DNA from: Polytrichum commune
Lineage: Eukaryota > Streptophyta > Polytrichopsida > Polytrichales > Polytrichaceae
NCBI GenBank assembly: GCA_950295325.1
Contig: OX485803.1
Location: 35,975,554 to 36,039,553, forward strand
Direction: 5' to 3'
Length of the DNA: 64,000 nucleotides
The notes beneath the pieces were generated by a model. The model was not told the DNA's origin. It searched no databases and saw only the letters and a list, made by a program, of their open reading frames with translations. Position numbers and translations under genes: made by a program. The first letter of the stretch is position 1. Every line of letters begins with the position of its first letter. Below are positions 1-63,000 of this stretch, in pieces.

Positions 1-3000
1 TCCCAATGATGCAATGACATCCTGGTTCCAGATACTGAACTTGTTCTTGCCGACAGGAACTTTTGCATACCAGACATCTCGGTCGCTCCACTTAGGCAGG
101 CTTGTTAGAAACAGTGCATGCGGTGGTGGCTCTGTGTCCAACCAAAGTGGTCGATGTGCCATGAGGATTTGATACGTCTCCAAAACATCTGGATTATAAC
201 ACCTGATTGAATGACGGGGCTTATCATCGATATTCAGTTTCCAGTTCACTCCCATATGTTGAGTGTACCTGTACATAAGAGTCCTAAGTCAATGGATGTA
301 GGTTACAGCAAGTCAGCATCAAAAGAAACACATCACAGCAAGAAATATAGTAATTACGCATAAGCTCAAGGAAAAGAGCTTTCTTGGAGGCCTCTTTACT
401 TACCTTAAGCAATCGCCATGTTCATCAGTGTAGAGCTCAAAATCAACATCAGAAAGTTCTCGCAGTTCACTGCGCCCTTTCACACAGAAATCACGCAGGC
501 AGAAGTAGGCAAAACGCCTACTACAACCCTCTGGATGTGTTTTTGAGAACTTGCACTGCCTCAACATCTCAGCCTCATCCATTAATGGACGGGCCTCTAG
601 AGCCATCACTTCCTGAGCAGACTCCATTGTTGCAGATTTTAATACAGCCTCCTCTACTGCCAGTTTCACCTTCAGATACCGAGGATCAAGGGAAATGTTG
701 AAAGGAACTTTTGCAATGCCAGTTTCCGCTGTCCTTTTTGTTTCACGTGCTCGAATGATACGCCCAATAGCTCTCAACATTGCTTGGATACTGACAAACA
801 AGTAAATGACTATGATTAACAACCAAGGCCACTGTCGTAGAAAAACAGTTTATGAGCAGCACATAAACCAAAAGTATCCACTGGACTATATGCACAACAA
901 TGAGTTACAAGATTGGAACCAGTCGTAAAAAAGTCACCAAATATACATGGAGGCCATCTCCACCTTACAGGATTCAATGTGCCAAACGGTTCTGATTCTA
1001 CACATTTCATTGCAATGCCTAGGCATGAACTGCCATATGCATGCACAAAAGTAAAATATGACAAACACTGACTGATAAAAAGTGAGCACCTTGTTGGCGG
1101 ATACAACTGCCCATTCTGTTTTGTGAGTTGTGACATAAACTCGCATAACTGATCAACAAATGGTGTCACATCCTCTTGTTCGGACAAATCCTCAATTGAA
1201 AGCTCTGTGGGAACACCATTTTGAGCCCTCCATGCATCAAAAGATTTCCTGGCCCACATTTCAGAGTAGTTGCTTGCGCTCCTTTCTCTTGGTTCAGGAT
1301 GTAAACGGTATCTGGAAGGGGGCTTTGGCCGAGCTGCTCCAATAAGAGCAGCTCTTACAGCAGCAACACTCTTCATAGCATGAGGACCAGTAACTCTCAT
1401 ACGCTTGTACTGCTTAGCACCAGGTTCGTAAACAGTTGTAAATTTTCTCTTCTCAGATAATGGAGTAACTTCAAGTACAATATCTGTTTTCTCAGCATCA
1501 GGTTCATCTGTGACAGTAGACTGGTTTTCCTCTGGATTTGGTTTCTCTGTCACTACACTCTTCTCAACAGTACCATCAGCAGCATCAGTTTCAAGGACAT
1601 CTTGACCATTGTCATCAAGGACAATGACTTCTGGAACTGTTAGCACAGATGATTCAGTGCCTTCTTCCTTCTCTTCTTCACTTTGAGGTGCCTGTGTCCC
1701 ATTTTCAGGGCCTCGTACCTCCACACCACCTGATTGAGTTGGAGTATCAGGGCAGGGTGCTTGAGGAGGTTGGGGAGTTGTACCAGCCTGTGGAACCTGG
1801 GAACCCTGTGGAGTGGATGAGGAAGGTTGTCGGACAGAAATTGGTCCTGAAAGGACATCCTCAATAAGGTGAGCAGGGACAAACCACATAGTCATGAGAC
1901 ATCAATGTGCACAAATTTCTACATAAGTCACCCCAGAAAATGTCATGAAAACAACAAGATTCCAGCCCTTCTTTATAGCAAACAACAGACAAAAAAATAT
2001 CACAAATATATTACCTCTATTCAAATGGTAAGAAGTAACATCAATGGTCGGAAGTGGACCATTTGGGCCTTGAACATGAGTTCGCAAAGTGCCATTGATA
2101 TCCTTCCTGTTAACCACTTTCAGTTTGTTTGGAACTCCCTCTCTGGACTGCAGTGATCCTGGTGGCAGTGATATTGGTTCCACCCTTTTCTGTCGCTTCA
2201 CACTACAAGAACCAATCCAGAAGCATACTTAGCACAAAAACACCAACAAGAGCATTGGAATATAATTAGTGAAATGGCTTCCTTTGGTTCCTGCAATTAT
2301 TGGAGTGTGAGAACTGCGGGTTTGCCATTCAAGGACTCTTTATGTTGATGACACATGAATAGAACAGTGTAGAAAGATACTGGCATTCTTGTGCAGACCT
2401 AATGTCACCTACATTAATGGCCAGCCCCTTTGATAAATGACCCTGGGACTAGAATTTAGTTACTAGAATACATCATCAGAGAATAGGCGTACTCTAATTG
2501 GGGCTGGCAAAAATTGGCATACTTCGAAAGAAAAGAGTGCAAATCCAAGGGGCAATTTCAAATGCAAATAGAAGTGAGAATTAGAGTTTGACATTATCAG
2601 ATCCTTTTCTACCTCTGTTCAGTCCAAACTTAAGAATATGGCTATAATATAAGCAAACCTGATTAGATCTGAATCTTGAAGAAGACTAGGCAGCTCAGTT
2701 GGAGGTAAAGCATAACCATCCATCTGCAATTGTGAACACAAAGTCAGTGTGCTGAAGACTTTGTTCCTGACAATTCAGAGGAAGACAGTCCGCAGGCATA
2801 GCCAGAACCTAACAAAAGATGCACCAAAGTAGTTACTCTTACTCTGCTCAAAAGAGAAGGACTAATCCAGCCCAATTAGCAGTATTATATTATCTATGAC
2901 GAATACCTAAGTCATTCTATGGCCTGCTCTTTTGTTGATCATCATGACGATCACAACAAATATTTGCACAAATTGTTGAAGGTACTGAATTAACAGAATT

Positions 3001-3624
3001 AAATAAAAGTAGTTTAGAGACAAGATATGTAGTAACACCAATGGAGATTTCTAAGCAAGATGATTGCATGATTTACGCCATGCACCTTCAAGATGATTCT
3101 AACTTGGTTCTTTAATATGATATGAACATCTAAAGAACCTGCAAGAAATATTGACATAGAAATCTACTGTTTAAGATGCCATTGATCTCAAAAGAGTTAA
3201 GACCACTAAAAATCATGGCCTTAGAAATCAGATAGCTGATCCTCGCCCCTTTCTTGAAAACCCAGACTGAAAGCCATCTGGACAAAATAACTCAGAATGT
3301 AACCCGTGACAATGAGTATTCAGCTGTTGTAATGGCAGCAGACTAGCCAAGGATTCAACTATGAGCTCAGTGTGGAGAACCAGTCATCAGTGCAATATGA
3401 GATGTTACCTCAAGGGAGATGCCGTCCCGACAAGAATGTTGCAGATCAAACTTAACAGCAATGTGGGCAGCAAGATGACCGATTGAAAGAATGTGATTAT
3501 GTACAAGAATCCAACATTTTGAGAGCCCTTGCTCAACTTGGAGTGGTGTGAGCATGCCCGCCTCATCAAAACTTAGCCTGATCCTCACCCCCTTCTTGAA
3601 ATCCATATTTGGCCGAAACTCCAT
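1..3624 (-). CDS. Coilin N-terminal domain fused to QRICH1/ZMYM-type (Crypton-like) domain, 3' end outside window
   Basis: Minus-strand exons, all GT-AG with matching phases: 3624-3409, 2723-2659, 2202-2015, 1846-1090, 790-404, 268-1 (at least 627 residues). Residues 1-105 look like the coilin N-terminal self-association domain: VRIRLSFDEAGMLTP, QGLSKCWILV, FDLQHSC then MDGYALPP and a DSDLIS-VKRQKR end, close to the plant coilin pattern. Residues 158-350 are a Pro/Ser/Glu-rich linker with VIVLDD (230-235), a SUMO-interaction-like motif. From about 353 (MWARKSFDAWRAQNG, then LYPPT, a block with IGRIIR, FNISLDPRY, and VWYAKVPVGKNKF near the window edge) it resembles the C-terminal domain of QRICH1/ZMYM proteins, which is related to Crypton tyrosine recombinases. 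Coilin organises Cajal bodies; the second half's role here is unknown. The start is the first in-frame ATG, 12 codons before the domain. The usual plant coilin C-terminal Tudor-like domain is not seen. Two separate genes remain possible. Confidence 0.72.
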
Positions 3625-14292: not shown

Positions 14293-17200
14293 ATGTCTTC
14301 AATGTACACCTTGTCGCTCTGCCCGGTTGCAATGTCCGCGGCATGCATCCGGGCTTCGACCACATCTGAATTGTGCATCCAGCAGCATGGAGTGGTTGGG
14401 AAAATGGCGCCTATCCCTCTTCTTCAATGCAGGTCATCATTCAGTTCGGATGTGTCACGGCGAATGACAGGAATTCCTCGGAATGCCGCGTGGACACGGA
14501 TCATGGCTTCCCCAGGAGGTCGGCTAAACCTCAGTCCGATTTTTGAAATTGTTCACCAAACCTATAGGTTGTACTTATAGATTGCTAACCCCGAAATATA
14601 GCTGTGTATCTGGGTTTTAGGAATTGCTCACAAAACCTATATGTTATACATGCGGATTGCTATCCCTGAAGTAGCTGCGCTCCTGGGTTTTGAATTGTTC
14701 ACTAAGCCTTAAGGTTGCACTTGTAGATTATCCTCGAAGTAGCTTTGTTTCTGGGTTTTGAATTGCTCACAAAAGCCCAAAGGTTATACTTATAGATTGC
14801 TATCCCCAAAGTATAGGTGTGTATCTGGGGTTCAGGAATTGCTCACAAATATTGTATGTTATACATGCGGATTGCTATCCCTGAAGTAGCTGTGCCCTGG
14901 GTTTTGAATTGCTCAGTAAAAATTTAGGTTGCACTTGTAGATTATTATCATCCCCGAAGTAGCTTTGTTTCTGGGTTTCGAATTGCTCACAAAAGCCCAT
15001 AGATTACACTTGTTGATTGCTATCCCAAAAGTAGAGTCTGTGTTTCTGGGTTTTAGGATTGCTCACAAAACCTATACATTGTAGTTGTGGAATGCTGTTA
15101 TCCCCACATAAGCTGAGAACAAGAGGTGTTGACTCTCAGAAGTGCCGCAAGAGATTTTGGAGGACAGCAAGTTTGTGGCAATCAACAATGAAGATCCGAG
15201 GTTTGGTCCTGCAGTAAGTAAGCTCCACTTTACAGCTAATGGATGCCTTGAATGTCTGTCGCACTTGTCCAATGTTCGTTTGAACCTGAAGCGCGTATAG
15301 ACTAGTTACACAAGTATCTGTGTGACCAACTCTGCAATGTAATGAAATTTTATTTTCCTGTATACAAAACACCTTACAGAACATAACAAGTGTTCTTACG
15401 CCTGGTGGATCTAGCCTGCTCATGTGTTGCCATATCTAGACTTATCCTCACTAGTCTGATACATTACAGGGTCATTTCTAGGATGTCAGTTGCTTCATCG
15501 CCGCCTTCACACACTAATTGTTCCTTTCGCCAAATTCTGCGCAGGCCATTTTGCTAATAGGATTCAGTCCGGAGGAGATTGCCACAGTAGGTCCCTAACT
15601 TCAGTGCCTCTCTCCCACTCCTCTGAAGTGAATTCTTTAATATGAGAATCAAGATCCTTAGCTCTTTGCATAGAACACGTTGAATACATCTGCAAAATAA
15701 GTTCTCTTTGAGGTCCAATTCAACCCCTAAATATATTTCGGCAATACAACACCGAAGTGTAGAATCTGTGCAACGTTATTCAGCTTCCAAAGTGATTGGA
15801 AAGCGATGAATGGACTACTGTTCAACAAAGTGTGGAAACCTAATCAACCATAGGTCAGATTTCGCTGGAAAATATGCTGGCCGTATTTTGATTAGAAGAG
15901 ATTTGAAATTTGTGAGCAATAACAAGTCTCCTTGTTCACGTTTCCAGACACAGGAAATGTTAGCAGACATGGGTGGAGACTTCATGACGGTAAGTATCGT
16001 CTTTTGGAGGATAACTGTAAGAAGATGTTGTCCGCCTTTCAGCTTTTCCTTGGGCGTTGAGCTCACAATCATTTCTGGTTTAAGCGACTGCTGGATTTTC
16101 CATGCATGCGCCCATCATCACTCTGTTTATCCTGATATAGTTGTATATGGCTGAATCTACAGGTGCTTTTGGCTACTGCTGAGATGATGAAGGGAACTTT
16201 GAATGAAGCATTGAATACCTCACAACCAGATCTGTCTGAAGTTGAGGTACTAATCTGATTTTATTCCCAAGCTTAGTCTTGCAGTCGTACAATCATGGAA
16301 CACCTAAGTGAACTACTCTAATGAAATACAAGTGAATTGACTAAAACAATCAACTGAACTAGTGGTTGTTGTAATTGTGGTGAAGTCAAGCGGCCACTTG
16401 AAAAAAATAGCTGGAATTGCACAAATCAATAGCAACCTCTTGATATATATACGTGGAGCACAGAGCTTATTTTGGTTTCGATGTAGCCTTTATCTCCCCA
16501 ATTAGCAAATCGTGCCATTTGGTCGGTGATGCTATTCTTTAGCAGTGAATTTATTCCAATTCACAGTTTCTTTGCTAGCTTGTATCAATTTCCTGTATGT
16601 CTGCAAGGAGCAAAACACAATGACACAATTTTATCCTTCATGTCAGTGGTGTTTTCCATTGCACATACGATAATGATCAAAATTTACCAGATCTCTGCTA
16701 ATTCCATAATCTCAAGGCGCCAAATGTAGTCCTACGTTTTCTTATCCTAGCAGAGGTTAACGTCCTTTAGTTAAGTTTTTTTACAATTCTGATAGCTTTC
16801 TTGCATGCCTTCCCAATTCTGACTTCGTACAGCTGGCTCGTAAGGTCTCCTACCTTGGTCTAGTATCTTGTTTCCCATGTTTGATTCGAGAAGGGTGTCT
16901 TGAGAATGATCTGGTCATGTCTCAACCTTGCAGGTGGTGAAGGGGTTGTCAAAGATATGCTTCTTATCAGGGCTAACTGGTGAAGAACTTATGATGCTTG
17001 TCCGGGCTTTTCCTGAAGTCGGTAATACACTCACCCTTCCTTTATGCAATGTTCTTATGCAGGCCCCTACGATTCTTGACCAATTTAAGCAAAATGTCTG
17101 TACTAAGTTATCTACTACTACTTTCAATCTAGCTTAAAAAAGTTACCCTTCAGCAATGCCTTGTTGAGCTGTAGCTCTGGAGAAAGTCATACTGAGAAGT

Positions 17201-54172: not shown

Positions 54173-54606
54173 CAGGGTGTTGTGTCGTGTTAACATGAAT
54201 GGGTTACAAAAGAAAATCCGTGTAGCATGCTTCATCACGGAATCAAGTAAAATGCAACATTGCAATAATGACATTAATTACAAACGATGACAACGTGGTG
54301 CGTGCGAGTGTGTGGTTTGAATTCTTCGGTGGATTACTTTAATGTGAGAACATGTGACATGTGGGAGGGAAACACGACAACAAGGGGCGAGATTCAAACC
54401 GAGAACATAGGGTTTCGGGATATGAAGAGAAGGAGTGACATTAAGGACGTTGATATTACCGGGGTTGTGTAGTGTTTAACATGGATGGGTTGCAAAGGAT
54501 AATTCATATAGCCTGCATCATCACAAAATCACGTCAAATGCAAGATTGCAATAATGATATTAATTACAAACGACGACAACGTGATGCGTGCGAGTGTGTG
54601 GTTTGT

Positions 54607-55246
54607 AGGCTTTGGTGGATTACTTTGATGTGAGAACCCGTGACATATGAGAGGGAAACAACACGACAACAAGAGGGTGAGATTCAGACTAAGAACTTAG
54701 GGTTTCAGGATACAAAGAGAAAGAGTCACATTACAGACAGTGATATTACGGAAGTTGTGTAGTGTGAAGGCTTTGGTGGATTACTTTAGTGTGAGAACTT
54801 GTGACATATGAGAGGGAAACAACACGACAGCAAGGGGGTGAGATTCAGACTAAGAACTTAGGGTTTCGGGATACGAAGAGAAAGAGTCACATTACCGACA
54901 GTGATACTACGGAAGTTGTGTAGTGTGAAGGCTTTGGTGGATTACTTTAGTGTGAGAACCAATGACATATGAGAGGGAAACAACAGGACAACAAGGGGTG
55001 AGATTCAAACTAAGAACTTAGGGTTTCGGGATACGAAGAGAAAGAGTCACATTACGGACAGTGATACTACAGAAGTTGTGTAGTGTGAAGGCTTTGGTGG
55101 ATTACTTCAGTGTGAGAACCCGTGACATATGAGAGGGAAAAGACACGACAACAAGGGGTGAGATTTGAGCCGAGAACATAGGGTTTCGGGATACGAAGAG
55201 GAGGAGTGACATTAAGGACGTTGATATTACAGGAGTTTAGAGTGTA
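54607..55246. repeat. Tandem array, four units of ~161 bp
   Basis: The phrase AGGCTTTGGTGGATTAC starts at about 54607, 54768, 54929 and 55089. Each unit also carries GTGAGAAC, GAGAGGGAAA, ACTAAGAACTTAGGGTTTC (last unit diverged), GGGATAC and GAAGTTGTGTAGTGTG. A divergent unit precedes the array at about 54320-54470. Units are segments of the family B MITE. Confidence 0.9.
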
Positions 55247-57018
55247 CAGTGGTTACCAAGGATTAAATTAGGTCAAGTTCACGAATGAAAGAGGACTCTC
55301 TCTCTCTCTACACTATCTCTCTATCCCTCTATCTATCCCTCTATCTACACTATCTCTCTCTGTATCTATGAGTGTAACCTAGGTATCTGACAGGTCCGCC
55401 CGGCCGCCCGGCCGCCCACAGGAAAGTACAGGCAACAGGGAAATTTGGACAGTGGCTGGGCTTGGCCTGGCCTGGGCTGGGCTGCCGGCCGGCGCTTGGA
55501 AGCACACGACGACCCCAACAAACAGGGAGAGACCACACACAGACAGACAGACTTTTTCCATCTCTGTGTTGCCATTCGACAGCTGGGGAATCCGCCCGCT
55601 CCCCTTGCTGCTGCTGCTGTTGTTGTTGATGTTGCTGTTGGTGTTGCTGTTATTATTGTTGTTGTTTCGCCTGCCCTGCCTGCCTGCCTGCGTGTGGTGG
55701 GTTTGATGAGAGCCCGCCCCTGTCTCTGTGCGCACTGTCCGTCTCTGCCTCCCTCCCATTAGTGAGGGCCTCCCCGCGGGCCTCTCTGCCTGCCTGCCCT
55801 CCTGCCTGCTCCCCTGCTTCAGGAAGGAAGGAAAACAAAGACTCCTGCTACTGCAACCCAACCCATCACGAGCCTTGCGGAAAAGGGATAGAGGGAGGGA
55901 GGGGAAGGGGGGGGGGGGGAAAAAAAAAAACGGTTTTCCCGACTCACGTGGTGCAAGTGTTGTGGTGTAAGTAAAGAGGGAGGAGGAGGAGGGAGTAGTA
56001 GTAGTAGTAGGAGTACGGCGATGACCTTTTTTGTCCGCTTGCCGCCAGCCAACCCTCGGGCGCTTCACGGCGGTGGCCAATTAACTTAACTTAGGCATGG
56101 CGGAAAGGAAATCGATGACGCAGAACAGCAGGTCCGTTCCGTTCCGTTCCGTTCCATGCTGTGCTGTTCCTTTTCTTTCCTCGTCTTTCCTTCCCATTTT
56201 CTTCCGTCGCTTCGGTTCGGCACTTTTCGGTCGGGTTGGCTTGTGTGTGTTTTGGTGTTGTGGGTTGTCTTGGTGGAGTGATGGGAGCTTGGGCGTTATA
56301 AAGTGTTTGGGTTGTAGATTCGATCGCCATCTGGGAGTTCATGACAACGATGATGATGATGATGCCGCTCCCTATCTTGCGTGGAACGGGTCGTTGGTAA
56401 TTTGGCAGCATGCTGTTGTGCCAGCAGGGTAGGGTAGCGGCTGCAATTTGACTCGGTGGCTTCTTAGTTGAGGAAAATTTAGGCACTAGGCCATGCATGG
56501 GGCACATACATACATGCTGACGGCTAATGGTTAAGGCCATTGTGGCGATGTGGGAGCTAGGGGAAAGAAATTGGGCTAACAGGTGTGAGAGAGCACGTGG
56601 GCAAACCAAACCCCAGTTGATGATTTTCAGCCTGCTTGGTTTGTTGCGGTCGTCCTGTTCGGTTTGTCGTTACCCTTGGTTAATAATCCGTCTACTCGGA
56701 TCATTTGGGCCTTTGTATGTGATCGATGTATGTTGCCATGTGTTGTTGTGAGACTATGCCCTATCCGTTGAGGCTGTTGAGAAGGTCATAATGTGTGTGT
56801 GTGTGTGTGTGTAACTATGTATGATGTCTGATCCTTGTTCTTGTTATTGGAATGCAGCATGGGTTTTAGTATTTCATATGGAATAGCTGGTCCGAACAAA
56901 TTATTGGGAGGGGATTTTGAAGAAGCAGTTCCTTGTTGGTGGATGATGCGGAGAGGAGGAAGGCAGTTTGAATGTTTCACCTACTACTACTACTGGGGCT
57001 AGAGGAGGGGTAATAGAT
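55247..57018 (+). promoter_or_regulatory. GC-rich promoter and leader of the CHD-type gene
   Basis: From about 55380 the base composition becomes strongly GC-rich with CTGCCTGCCTGC and GCCGCCCGG runs, a G11/A10 tract at 55908-55930 and GGAGGAGG/GTAGTAGTA runs, typical of plant transcription starts and long leaders. A long minus-strand frame here (55379-56080) is low-complexity and judged spurious. An acceptor-like TTGTTATTGGAATGCAG ends at 56857, implying a leader intron and a second leader exon from 56858. A GT microsatellite at 56791-56812 would lie in that intron. Confidence 0.5.
56859..57002 (+). other. Upstream open reading frame in CHD leader
   Basis: An ATG two bases after the putative splice acceptor opens a 47-codon frame (MGFSISYGIAGPNKLLGG...) ending at TAG 57000-57002, 16 bases before the main ATG at 57019 and in a different frame. 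If the leader exon is right, ribosomes meet this frame first, so it could reduce translation of the main product. It could instead be a coding exon if a different splice were used; a one-base difference in the ACT repeat near 56983 would also change the frame relation. Confidence 0.4.
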
Positions 57019-60000
57019 ATGCAAGCAAAGAAGAAAGTGAAGGTAGGCGATACAATCTCAGTTTACTGGCCCGATGACCGGGTTTGGTATAAGGGTGAAG
57101 TGTTGTCCACCGATGGGGCCTTGGACACATGTGAAGTTCTCTACGAAGATGGAGAGAGGGAAGTGCTGATACTTACCAAGGAAATATATAAGGTTCACGC
57201 GGGAAGCAGGAAGCGACTCTTTGATAAGGTCTTGGGAAGTGATGGAGATGTTTCCAAACAGCTTGCAGCTATTGCTGCTGTTCTATTTGATATGGGTATG
57301 TAATAATGGTAGCTCCCCCCTCCCCCCCACCCCCTGCTCAGTGTTCCTTAGCTGGGTTGACATTATTGACGGGCTCTTTGTGGAAGATAATTACGACAAA
57401 GTCAGGTCACTTTATGTACTTGACCGTGCCTGAAAGTGTGCAAATTGGCTATATGATGTTACGCCTGTCGTAAAATGTTGCAATTCTCTCTTGGGACCTT
57501 CCCCCCTGCGCCAATGAGAATGAGAATGTCTCACTTGAATTGTTTAAAATTGAAGCTTGAAATCCCAAGTCCTGGTTTTCAGTGGTGGATAACATTCTCA
57601 AGTAGATAGGTTTTTGATGGTTAGTTTTTTAGTTGTAGGGAAAGTGTCGTGTGGCTATGAAATTTAAAAGAAAGAAAAGATTCTGTTGTCCTTTCCATTG
57701 CGTTGGAATACAATTTTAATTTCTCAAAAGCAGGGGTTAAATAATCAATATACGATAATTTTTTGGTCTATGCAACTCAGGAATCTCTCATCCATTCTGA
57801 TTGGCGCAATATTGCTGTATGTTTATGTTGTGTGGTCATAAAAGTTAGGCAGGCATTCATGAATCCAATCAAAAGATCCTACAGGTTCAGATGGAATGTT
57901 TAAAGAGATTCACATGCATTTACAATCAATGCAGTCTGGATTTTCTGTTGTGTTGCATATTCTTTTCTGCACCTATCATTCTCTCTTCTATTTTGCTAGA
58001 AGTATATGTGTAGTCTGGAAAGATTCGGTCTTGTCCTCATTTGTAATGTGGCTAATTTTTTTAAGATCTGACATCAGATTTTGCTCTGGCTACAATTTTA
58101 ACTGGTACCCAATGTTGTGTGTAGAGGACAGGCTACCCTCAAAAGGAGTGTGCTCAAGCAGAGTAGGATGGTGGTCTGCTTGGCATTCTGGTGCAGTGTC
58201 TGCCGTGCAAGCAGAGAGTGTGATATTGTTGGCAAAATCTGCTCGGGAGCTTTCTTGCCAGCTAAGGCCTAATGTTACAACATCCTGGTGGAGTTCAAAT
58301 GTAATGAATAGTCAGTTATGGCTCATCTGCTAGTTTTTTGGTTTGATGGTTTCCTGTGACTTGGAGGGTTCCCACTTTCAGCTCTGCAAAGCAGCCTCTG
58401 AAGTTTGATGTTATCCAGGGGCCAGACTGGCGGGAGCGTGTACGAACGGTGAAAACCTGTGCAGAGCTGATGAGCTTTGTAACTGAACTGTTGACAAAGG
58501 GGGTTGATTGGACACGTGCACGGCAGTTGTTTCCCATCTCAAATGGACGCTCTGGTATGCGGCTAGGATGACTTGCTGTCTGATAGGTGTTTGGAGCTGA
58601 TGGAGTGTGAGAATGGTGGTATTTTCCTATGACATGGACGACAAAGTTATATATATTTCACACCAAGTCATGATTACAGTGGTTCTATATTTCAACATTT
58701 TGTGTTATCTGTATCCAGTAATGAGTTACTTATTGAATCATTTCTGAATCTGTTAACATGTAATATAGGGGCCCCAGTATGAATCTTTTGAATTTTGATT
58801 GGTCATGCACATATTTAGTTGAGCCAAGGATGTCTAGAGTCCTTGGTGTGCATTGGATTCCTTTTTGGCTGTATAACTTACACTGGTTCTGAGTTTTGAG
58901 TAAGCATGATGTGCATGAGATATTGTGATGGTTCTCTTGAATACCTGTCAGTGCATCGTGGGCTTTTGTAACTCCCATTTGTTACTTTGTTGATTAACAA
59001 CACAGGAGTCTAGCTAGCAGTAGATGGGATTATTGGGTCATTTATTGGTCATTTCTAGAACCTATTGCAAAAGTATAGGTCATTGAGGTCAAACATTACA
59101 TTTTTGTCTCTTTGGATAATGAGATTGCCCCCCTTCAAGGATATGTATACCTTCAACTTTTAATGCTTACTGGCAGGTTTAGTGGCCGTGCAAGCATATG
59201 AAAGCTGTTCATGTGTGGTCCAATGATAGCTAAAGATCCTACTGACATTTTCTTGCTCTGAACAGATGCGGGAGGTAGAGATAGTGGGAAAGATTCAAGG
59301 AGACAATCAAGGAGGAAGTCTATAGAACCTTGTAGATTAGAGAAGGATCAATGTCAACCTGTGAAGTCTTCTGTAATTTATGAAGCTGCAAAACTGAAGG
59401 CTCTGAAAGAAGCTAGTAGAGGACGGATAAAGCAAGTGACAAGAGTGTCATCAAGTGAGGACAGGATGGAGCACAATAATGAGGATACTTGTCCAGATGA
59501 GGAGGAGAAGTTTTCCGGAAACAACTCTAGTCCTGAGGACAATGTGAAATCTAAGACTGATCAGAAACAGCATGGTAGAGAAGGGCGGAGAAAGAAAATT
59601 GCAAAATCTCTGGATGAGGTTCAAAGGGAAGAGGATGGATCTGGAAATACATCCTCTTTGTCAACCAGATCAAGAAGAAAAGTTGAACTAAAAAAAGAGA
59701 AGACAAAGGAATCAATCTCCAAGGAGGAGATGCAGCTAAATCGTGTTTGTTCACAAACTGGAGGGGGAAGAGTTGGAAAGGCTGCTGTGAGTGAACAAGT
59801 CAGGGGTGGTTTAACAAACAGGCTCAGAAGGAATGCTAAACAGGACCAGCTCCATAAGGGTGATGCAAATGAGGATGATGATGATGATGATGACGATCCA
59901 AGTTCTCAGGAGATCACAAATGCAGATCAGGATGGGCAGAAAGGAAAGAAGAGAGGTGCAAGGGTAGGAAAGGAATCTGTGAGTGAGGATGAAAGTGGTG

Positions 60001-63000
60001 CTCCTTCTAGCAGACTGAGAGGAAATGCAAAGTCTATCAGTCGAAGCTTGCAGGAGAAACGGGTGAAAAGGCAAAGAGGAAATGTGAAGCATGGGGTGTC
60101 TGACAGGGAGGAGGAGGATCCAGAGGAAGAAAGTGGAGAATCTGGTGGATTTTCTAGCAGATCTGAGGACTCTGGAGATGGAGATGCAGAGTATGAGCAG
60201 CGTACACATAAAGAGGAAAACAGTGCAAGAACTAGGTTATCAAAGAGAAAGTCAGATGAAATTAATAATGGCTTGGGGAAGAAAACAAGGAGAGAAGGAA
60301 TTCAGACACGGTGTGAAACTAATTCCAGGTATAGATGCCACTGTCCTTAGAGCTGCATTTTATGTCCAGCATCAGTAATAGACTTTACCACACACCACAC
60401 ACCGCAACAGGGGTGTGGTGATGGTAACCATTATTTGTCCGATCAACATTTTATGATCATGGATCAGAATAACTGTTTGATGGGCATCAAGAATTTTCTG
60501 ACAAATAGGTGTAAGGTCCAGAGATGAATAGTATTTAACCAACTTTTTGAGCTTGTGCAGGCATGGTACTTCTGGTGCTGCTGGTCTTAGAAAACCTCCG
60601 CTGAAATCACAAAGCGATAGTGATGAGGATTTTGTTATGGAGGGCAGCGAAGAGAGTTCTTCCAGCAGTGAAGATGGCAATGGGAGGAGCAATGAAGCTA
60701 GTGATGGGGCTAGTGATGACACTTCATCTCAAGAAGAAAGGAAGAAGTCTCCTAGTAAAAGTAAAGGAGCGGGGAACGCCAAAACAAAATTACCACTAAG
60801 CCCTTCCCCTCAGTCTGATGAAGAAGTTTGCTCTGTCTGTGAGGTACTTATTACCATTGTGGGATCATTCCACTCCTATTCCTCAGTCTATCCATCTTGA
60901 TTCTGATCAAATTGGCAGTTGTGTTTCTCTGATTCCTAAGATAATTAGGTAGAGTTACATAATTCTTAATAGATGCCCTGTGTTTGGAGCATTTTCAAGA
61001 CTGAATCATATAGATGATTGATAGACATTAAGTGGGGAGAGGTGACACCTTATCATCATAAAATGGGATATAGGTGTATTGTAAGACCCTGTGGTCGACA
61101 TTACATTGCTGGGATATGATCTGATACCTGACTCAATTGCCTGCTTATAACCTTGAATCTGAATGTATGGTCATAATCTTCAAGAGTCTTTTGTTTATGT
61201 AGTTACTGGATGAGATAAATTCATGCTTTTTTCCTCTAGGATGGCTGCAGCCATTTTAAGTAGTGATGTATGAATGTCCAATGGTTCTTGGTGTTGGTAG
61301 ATTTTGGTACGATATCAAACATGTTGGTACCATATTATTGAAGAACAACATATTGGTACCATTTCATTAAATGTGGTCTAATCCAATTATGTCCTTAAAA
61401 TTGCTCCTCATTTCAAATTGTGTTCCTGCTCATCATTTAGAGTGCACTGCTTATGACTGACACACTGATTGTTTCTTCTGCAGTTTGGGGGAGCTGCAGA
61501 TTTGATGCTATTGTGTGATGGGGAGAACTGTGAAGAAGCGTTCCACTCATTTTGTCTTAAGCTTCCTCTTCAATCTATCCCAGAGGGTGACTGGTTGTGC
61601 CCTCTCTGCTTGGAGGAAAAGCAGACAACATCAAAGACCAGTAAGAAGACTTCCAAGATGCGGGCAAAACTGATTCCTACTCTTAAGAAAGCGGAAGCCA
61701 TCATTGGGTGGCGTGACGACCCTGCTACTGTTAGTAGTGAAAATAAACAGGATAGGAAACTACAATATCTTGTCAAGTGGACTTCTCTTTCACACCGGCA
61801 TGATACGTGGGTAGGTTTTCAATCCAAATAAAAAGGGAGAGGCATTTGTGGTACCATGTACAATCTGATGTACCTTTTATGTGGCTATTGTGTTGGTGTT
61901 TGTGGAAACTTGGATGTGCTCCTGCTCCTATTTTCAGTTCTCCCTTTTCTGAAATTTTTAATAGTACGTTTCTACACATGTCAGGTTCCTGAGGAATGGC
62001 TTGCTTTTGTTGATCGGGCCCGTCTATTCAACTATCAACGTGGCAAATCCTTGTAAGTGACACTTTGGTACCTCACTTGATCAACTTCATGTTGGTTTTC
62101 TCATAAATGTACTCGTGTTACATCCACCGACTGTTCTCTTACATATGTTCCTTGCAATGTGTTGAAAGCAAGCTTCTCACTGTGTAGGGTGAAGAGTTCA
62201 AAAGGCTGTAGTTTATGTTTATGTCTTGGCTTAGTCTATATCCTGACAAGGATATGTTTTCAGTTTGTGTTTGTGTTTTGACATCTGACTGGCAGTGATG
62301 GAGATGGAGATGAGCTGGCTGATGAGCGCAGGCCGGAGTGGGTACAAATGGATCGTGTTATAGCCTGTCGTGATCAAAAAAGTCACGCTGAAGCTTTCCC
62401 ACCAGTGTGTGCCACTGGAGAGCTCAAGGAATCCAGGAGCAGCAAACTGGAGTATCTTGTCAAGTGGACTAATATTGAGTATAATAGTTCCACATGGGAA
62501 GAAGAGAACAATGATCAGGACATGCAGGAGGCTATTGAAAAGTTTACAAGGAGGTATGCAATGGCAAAAGAAAAGGCTTGCATGAAGCTAACAGAGAGGG
62601 CAGTAGCCCCTGCAATCAAGCAGCAGCCAAAATATATAACTGGAGGCACTCTGCATGGGTATCAGCTACAAGGTGTCAAGTGGCTTCTGAGTAATTTTCA
62701 ACAACGCAAAAGTGTTATCCTAGCTGGTATGTTCTTTAGGATTCAGCCAGTTTACAGATGATAACTGTTATCAGTTGAATATATTGCTAACTGTACACAT
62801 GTTGGGGCTGTTAAAATAGGAGTTGACCAAGGAGGGGTTGCAATTTGCATTCTCATTATTGAGGGTAATATGCTAGTGGTGTCCATTACACTAGGGCCCT
62901 GGTCTCACTTCTTTTGCATCTTCATTATCAAAAATTACTTCAGTTTATATAGTATCGGGTTGTCCTCCATTTATATGATTCTTCTGACAGCGTCTCTCCT

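Follow-up and report, generated by a model that had tools for sequence, protein, structure and literature searches.

Gene structure of the locus

The window, the whole stretch of 64,000 bases that was analyzed (C1:35975554–36039553 of a source genome of 407.8 Mb in 64 contigs), carries on its minus strand, from position 3624 to position 1, a six-exon gene in which the N-terminal domain of coilin is followed by a recombinase-like region. The exons form a single open frame of 627 codons in the window with consistent splice phases, which bears out the earlier claim of one frame across the junction of the two parts. The adjoining stretch (L001) adds 22 codons and then TGA; the stop lies 66 bases beyond the window, and the full protein has 649 residues.

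Exon 1 (3409–3624) contains the ATG, encodes the beginning of the coilin N-terminal domain, and ends in phase 0. Exon 2 (2659–2723, 65 bases) encodes the end of the domain and carries Asp91. The final coilin residues (VKRQKR) and the start of a linker are encoded by exon 3 (2015–2202). Exon 4 (1090–1846) encodes the linker, rich in Pro, Ser, Thr, Gln, Gly, and Asn, and the beginning of the recombinase region, which continues in exon 5 (404–790) with Lys513 at the place of the first catalytic Arg. Exon 6 (1–268) encodes the end of the DUF3504-like region and extends 66 bases beyond the window up to the stop, without a GH..Y motif. In the protein, Coilin_N occupies residues 13–100, the linker residues 102–347, and the recombinase-like part residues 348–649. 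The six residue types named above make up 45.9% of the linker.

All five introns are GT-AG. When the splice sites were scored with generic plant weight matrices, four of the five donors ranked among the best 1.6% of GT sites; that of intron 4 reached only the top 11.5%. Codon-usage scores are mixed, and they are independent for exons 3 and 4 only, exons 1, 2, 5, and 6 being among those used for training. In exon 3 the model frame has the best score, and intron 3 scores below zero in every frame, while in exon 4 a frame other than that of the model scores higher. The tRNA and Rfam scans gave no matches.

Coilin domain, resident coilin, and second fusion gene

The coilin N-terminus recognized in the preliminary description is a significant Pfam match: Coilin_N aligns with residues 13–100 at E 1.9e-12 and 47.7 bits (cut-off, 32.9). 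No Tudor domain was found in the window gene, the frame of which stops right after the recombinase part. The same description had proposed a check for a separate full-length coilin in the genome, and one is present (L024, C1:13.24 Mb). This resident coilin resembles Arabidopsis coilin, and its Tudor exons match PF23086 (Tudor_Coilin) at E 4.4e-24. A genome search with PF23086, in which only the best candidates were scored, gave two matches, both in L024. The idea that the genome's sole coilin had lost its Tudor domain was considered as an explanation and rejected, as L024 is intact.

The same architecture recurs in a second gene, L023, at C3:49.38 Mb, where recombinase-like exons lie approximately 2.4 kb downstream of a coilin exon on the same strand. 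Its model has eight exons, 613 residues, and consistent phases, with a TAA directly before the ATG. L023 and the window gene share part order, strand, and N-terminal exon boundaries and are on different chromosomes. Coilin_N scores 33.2 bits on the N-terminal piece of L023 (cut-off, 32.9) and 30.6 bits on the whole protein. The first three exon boundaries of the resident coilin match those of both fusions, and exon 2 has the same length (65 bases) and phases in the window gene, L023, and L024. Both fusions lack a Tudor domain, and a complete coilin is kept in the same genome. A Coilin_N profile search of the genome missed even the exons of the window gene, so its result is no evidence of absence.

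No shared neighbor genes were seen among the window, L023, L024, and L001, as far as their short flanks reach. The flank open reading frames of L023 (36) and L024 (17) gave three matches in the window, one of which is weak (E 9e-4) and two of which are repeat-like. Two weak matches were found between open reading frames of L001 and L023.

In the three pairwise comparisons of the coilin parts, pN/pS values are 0.258/0.732, 0.307/0.816, and 0.278/0.688, with dS near saturation. The coilin parts appear to be under purifying selection at the protein level, because pN is well below pS in all three pairs.

In an alignment with human coilin, Arg14 and Asp91 of the window protein presumably correspond to human R8 and D79, respectively, and the second fusion presumably has Arg and Glu at these places. 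At the place that we take to be human R36, Arg is absent from both fusions and from the resident coilin. Loss of R36 was dropped as a trait specific to the fusions, since the resident coilin also lacks Arg there. In human coilin, R8 and D79 are described as mediating self-association and R36 as mediating the contact with Nopp140, in the part of PMC9556525 that concerns these residues. Basic residues in the N-terminus of Arabidopsis coilin are likewise described, in a part of PMC3539977, as being behind RNA binding. By eye, these basic residues are mostly absent from both fusions and from the resident coilin.

Recombinase part and its relatives in the genome

The preliminary description had assigned the second half of the gene to the QRICH1/ZMYM type. 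The descent from Crypton recombinases implied by this assignment is supported, but the type is not. A Pfam scan of the whole window protein found neither DUF3504 nor QRICH1. On a 145-residue piece, DUF3504 gives E 0.012 and 16.1 bits against a cut-off of 29.7, colinear with profile positions 22–153 of 162, and on the preceding piece QRICH1 gives E 0.14 and 12.7 bits against a cut-off of 30.8. The QRICH1 match in the second fusion is also below that cut-off (13.0 bits). Plain membership of the QRICH1/ZMYM type was rejected on these scores, and the best interpretation of the second half of the window gene is a tyrosine recombinase of the Crypton type. The assignment is made because relatives in the same genome match at E values down to 6.5e-42.

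A genome search with the 627-residue translation produced 46 matches (E up to 10): six in the window gene, three at C3:49.38 Mb, one in the coilin at C1:13.24 Mb, and 36 in 29 other places. In 26 of these other recombinase-like places, at least one match has an E value of 0.001 or lower. The best relatives are L025, L026, and L027 (E 6.5e-42, 6.7e-41, and 8.3e-41, respectively). Their DNA is nearly identical, L026 sharing 98.8% with L025 over 2,818 bases and L027 sharing 98.2% with L025 over 3,199 bases. A fourth copy, L029, contains a stop. These four loci represent a Crypton-like element of approximately 3.2 kb with one intron in frame, and the three copies compared (98–99% identical) show that the element multiplied recently in this plant-type genome. 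Two more groups of near-identical recombinase relatives, L030/L033/L034 and L031/L032, were also observed.

A protein piece of L025 reaches DUF3504 at E 1.1e-4. The C-terminus of L025, with NKTAR, TGH, and YMRY, matches Phage_integrase at E 0.077 and 13.2 bits (cut-off, 27.1), and the C-terminal pieces of L031 and L030 match it at E 8.1e-6 and 1.9e-4, respectively, both below the cut-off, the former slightly. The Phage_integrase bit scores obtained for the relatives in this set are 26.2, 21.7, and 24.3 against the same cut-off. In L030 and L031, the C-terminal frames are open, with GH..RY. No likeness to reverse transcriptase was seen by eye in open reading frames of at least 110 residues in L030, L031, and L036.

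L028 (C7:14.42 Mb) is a recombinase relative without a fusion, and its three introns are at sites also found in the fusions or in L025. Near its end, it has TGP instead of TGH. L028 may be a domesticated gene and may show what the donor was like. The PDB sequence searches and the viral-contig scan found no relative, and a fold prediction for exon 5 alone (pLDDT 37.9) was of no use.

Catalytic residues

The catalytic motifs are referred to here as the first Arg, the Arg II box, and GH..Y, names in use for the tyrosine recombinase family. In the 11-row alignment, the window protein has Lys513 where all seven rows checked (the second fusion, L025, L028, L030, L031, L036, and L037) have the first Arg. 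The window protein also lacks the Arg II box and ends before GH..Y. The first Arg and an SKSRR box are present in the second fusion, which likewise ends before GH..Y. The catalytic GH..Y end is kept in the element copies of approximately 3 kb. The window gene is not an active Crypton element, as it is a single gene that stops before GH..Y. Its recombinase part is very probably Crypton-derived and unable to recombine.

The missing catalytic residues would also suit a decayed pseudogene, that is, a chance juxtaposition without expression or selection. However, 649 codons are open over six exons, though the coilin part is 49–54% identical to its paralogues. The excess of pS over pN in the coilin part, albeit with dS near saturation, and the open frame of the second, diverged copy in L023 likewise argue against decay. 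We consider a pseudogene highly improbable.

Junction of the coilin and recombinase parts

The two parts meet at intron 3 (1847–2014), a T-rich GT-AG intron. In the splice model, the donor follows 2015, the acceptor precedes 1846, and the gap between the exons is 168 bases, all as first described. The T content is 43.5% in the intron versus 22–24% in exons 3 and 4. Ranked by the same generic matrices, this intron has a donor among the best 0.9% of GT sites and an acceptor among the best 2.3% of AG sites. None of the four poly(A)-type hexamers searched occurs in intron 3, in line with the claimed absence of a polyadenylation-like break, and exon 3 has no in-frame stop of its own. The further claim that no strong new ATG intervenes stands in part. 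One frame runs through the spliced gene, but if intron 3 is retained, an in-frame TGA (1904–1902) is followed by in-frame ATGs at 1895 and 1889. A shorter separate product from these ATGs is possible.

These codons in the gap, together with the existence of L028 as an intron-bearing relative without a fusion, are what might be seen if the locus held two adjacent genes, a truncated coilin duplicate (exons 1–3) and a domesticated recombinase gene starting at an ATG in the 168-base gap. Such an arrangement is unlikely because a second gene with a coilin N-terminus, a recombinase, and the same splice positions exists. The second locus, L023, is the strongest evidence for one gene. The small size and T-richness of the gap, its good splice sites, the lack of the four hexamers, and the absence of an in-frame stop ending exon 3 also argue against separate genes. 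Furthermore, each of the two non-canonical coilin N-termini has a recombinase place no more than 3 kb downstream on its own strand, and the chance of this happening at both is roughly 1e-8 if uniform placement is assumed. Two neighboring genes were rejected on the second locus, the splice signals, and the short gap, and we regard them as quite improbable, if slightly less so than a pseudogene.

As predicted from gene structure, the coilin N-terminus and the recombinase very probably form a true fusion gene. The proposal that a Crypton-derived domain replaces the Tudor C-terminus of coilin is supported by the end of the gene after the recombinase part and by the same architecture in L023. That the gene is a true fusion and that its recombinase part is Crypton-derived and unable to recombine are, taken jointly, likely.

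Number of captures

Trees of the recombinase part sample 11 or 7 rows out of the 29 other places and the two fusions. Only the 11-row tree includes L032, L033, L034, and L037, and no tree includes L029, L035, or L038–L040. The 11-row alignment was anchored on the best query, and the 7-row alignments were unanchored. In these trees, the window gene groups with L025 and L028, and the second fusion groups with L030, L031, and L036. Clade support for this split is 99/100 in the 11-row tree and 100/100 in the 7-row trees. The split of the fusions was first noticed in pairwise identities, before the AU tests. With seven rows, holding the fusions together was rejected at AU p 7.3e-6, and the same constraint gave AU p 1.4e-11 on gap-free columns, 1.4e-6 under a simpler model, and 7e-4 on columns 1–190. 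One fusion followed by simple gene duplication was rejected on the basis of the different clades and these tests.

The intron site YPP^S (phase 2) is found in both fusions and L028. The site L^Y (phase 2) is found in both fusions, L028, L030, L031, and L036. The site V^W (phase 0) is shared by L025 and L028, and the second fusion has it to within about one codon. The L^Y and V^W sites probably predate the fusions, because they are present in relatives without a fusion too. The tree of the coilin part (five rows) gives AU p 0.41 and favors no single topology.

The YPP^S and L^Y introns common to both fusions and the stop at about the same place could point to one old fusion that predates the split of the recombinase branches, with the coilin part lost from the relatives without a fusion. 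The coilin-part tree is compatible with such a history. However, elements with a full catalytic end are on both sides of the split, and they are unlikely descendants of a dead fusion. In addition, the branch lengths of the coilin part are short beside those of the recombinase part. An old fusion is accordingly unlikely in our estimate. The trees and introns would be explained best by two captures or by a single capture plus a replacement, and the recombinase module was probably captured twice.

Proposed origin and function

A duplicated coilin gene may have supplied the N-terminal part, with three exons and their introns, which a low-complexity linker connects to an inactivated, intron-containing recombinase of the Crypton type. 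The second gene, on another chromosome, would have received its recombinase from another Crypton branch, so that a coilin N-terminus would have acquired such a module, or had it exchanged, on at least two occasions. The coilin domain would self-associate, perhaps joining the resident coilin in Cajal bodies, and the dead recombinase might bind DNA or partner proteins without cutting. Both parts together could act as a multivalent nuclear regulator.

We tentatively suggest, at somewhat less than even probability, that the window protein is a self-assembling, DNA-binding nuclear regulator. Whether its targets are the related Cryptons is more doubtful. It is similarly speculative that the coilin domain was joined twice independently to dead recombinases of two Crypton branches and that the products bind Crypton-type sites and hold mobile relatives or adjacent host genes in or near nuclear bodies.

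Comparison with known systems

Animal KCTD1, KIAA1958, ZMYM2/3/4, QRICH1, and WOC are domesticated Crypton recombinases with DUF3504, and Kojima and Jurka suggested DNA or protein binding for the animal DUF3504 domains, as given in sections of PMC3212892. The window gene resembles these genes in having a Crypton-type recombinase without catalytic residues and with host domains attached, for which DNA or protein binding is proposed there (PMC3212892). It differs from them in its coilin domain, in its Pfam scores below the cut-offs, and in the active-looking relatives in the same genome.

With coilin, as far as the relevant parts of PMC3539977 and PMC9556525 describe it, the window gene shares the N-terminal self-association domain, and its exon boundaries are those of the resident coilin. 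Unlike coilin, it ends in a recombinase part and lacks the Tudor C-terminus. Like KRABINER, SETMAR, and CSB-PGBD3, as outlined in part of PMC12062965, it is predicted from gene structure to combine a host domain with a transposon enzyme that may be capable of DNA binding. However, the enzyme is a tyrosine recombinase rather than a DDE transposase, and the host part is a nuclear-body scaffold domain. The land-plant ALOG proteins, as characterized in part of PMC3537659, likewise have a tyrosine-recombinase-derived domain domesticated in plants, but they are without a coilin part (PMC3537659).

In the sections concerned, PMC3212892 describes domesticated Crypton recombinases mainly from animals and yeasts. 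No description of a fusion between coilin and a recombinase or Crypton was found among the open-licence titles and abstracts searched. The present case is a plant-type genome with two putative Crypton-derived fusions to the coilin assembly domain, beside an ordinary coilin and Crypton-like elements that multiplied recently. If transcripts confirm the fusions, a nuclear-body scaffold would have been united repeatedly with a transposon enzyme. Two questions would then become testable: can the coilin N-terminus serve as a portable assembly module, and do domesticated recombinases control the elements to which they are related?

Other features in the window

On the plus strand, positions 56947–62758 contain exons of a chromatin-remodeller-like gene. 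Its scanned open reading frames give a weak Tudor-like match, a PHD finger match at E 2.1e-9, and two Chromo matches. Upstream of this gene, at 54595–55237, there are four tandem copies of a unit of 160–161 bases that are approximately 90% alike. Tandem repeats also form an array at 14541–15076, where the periods are 75 and 215 bases.
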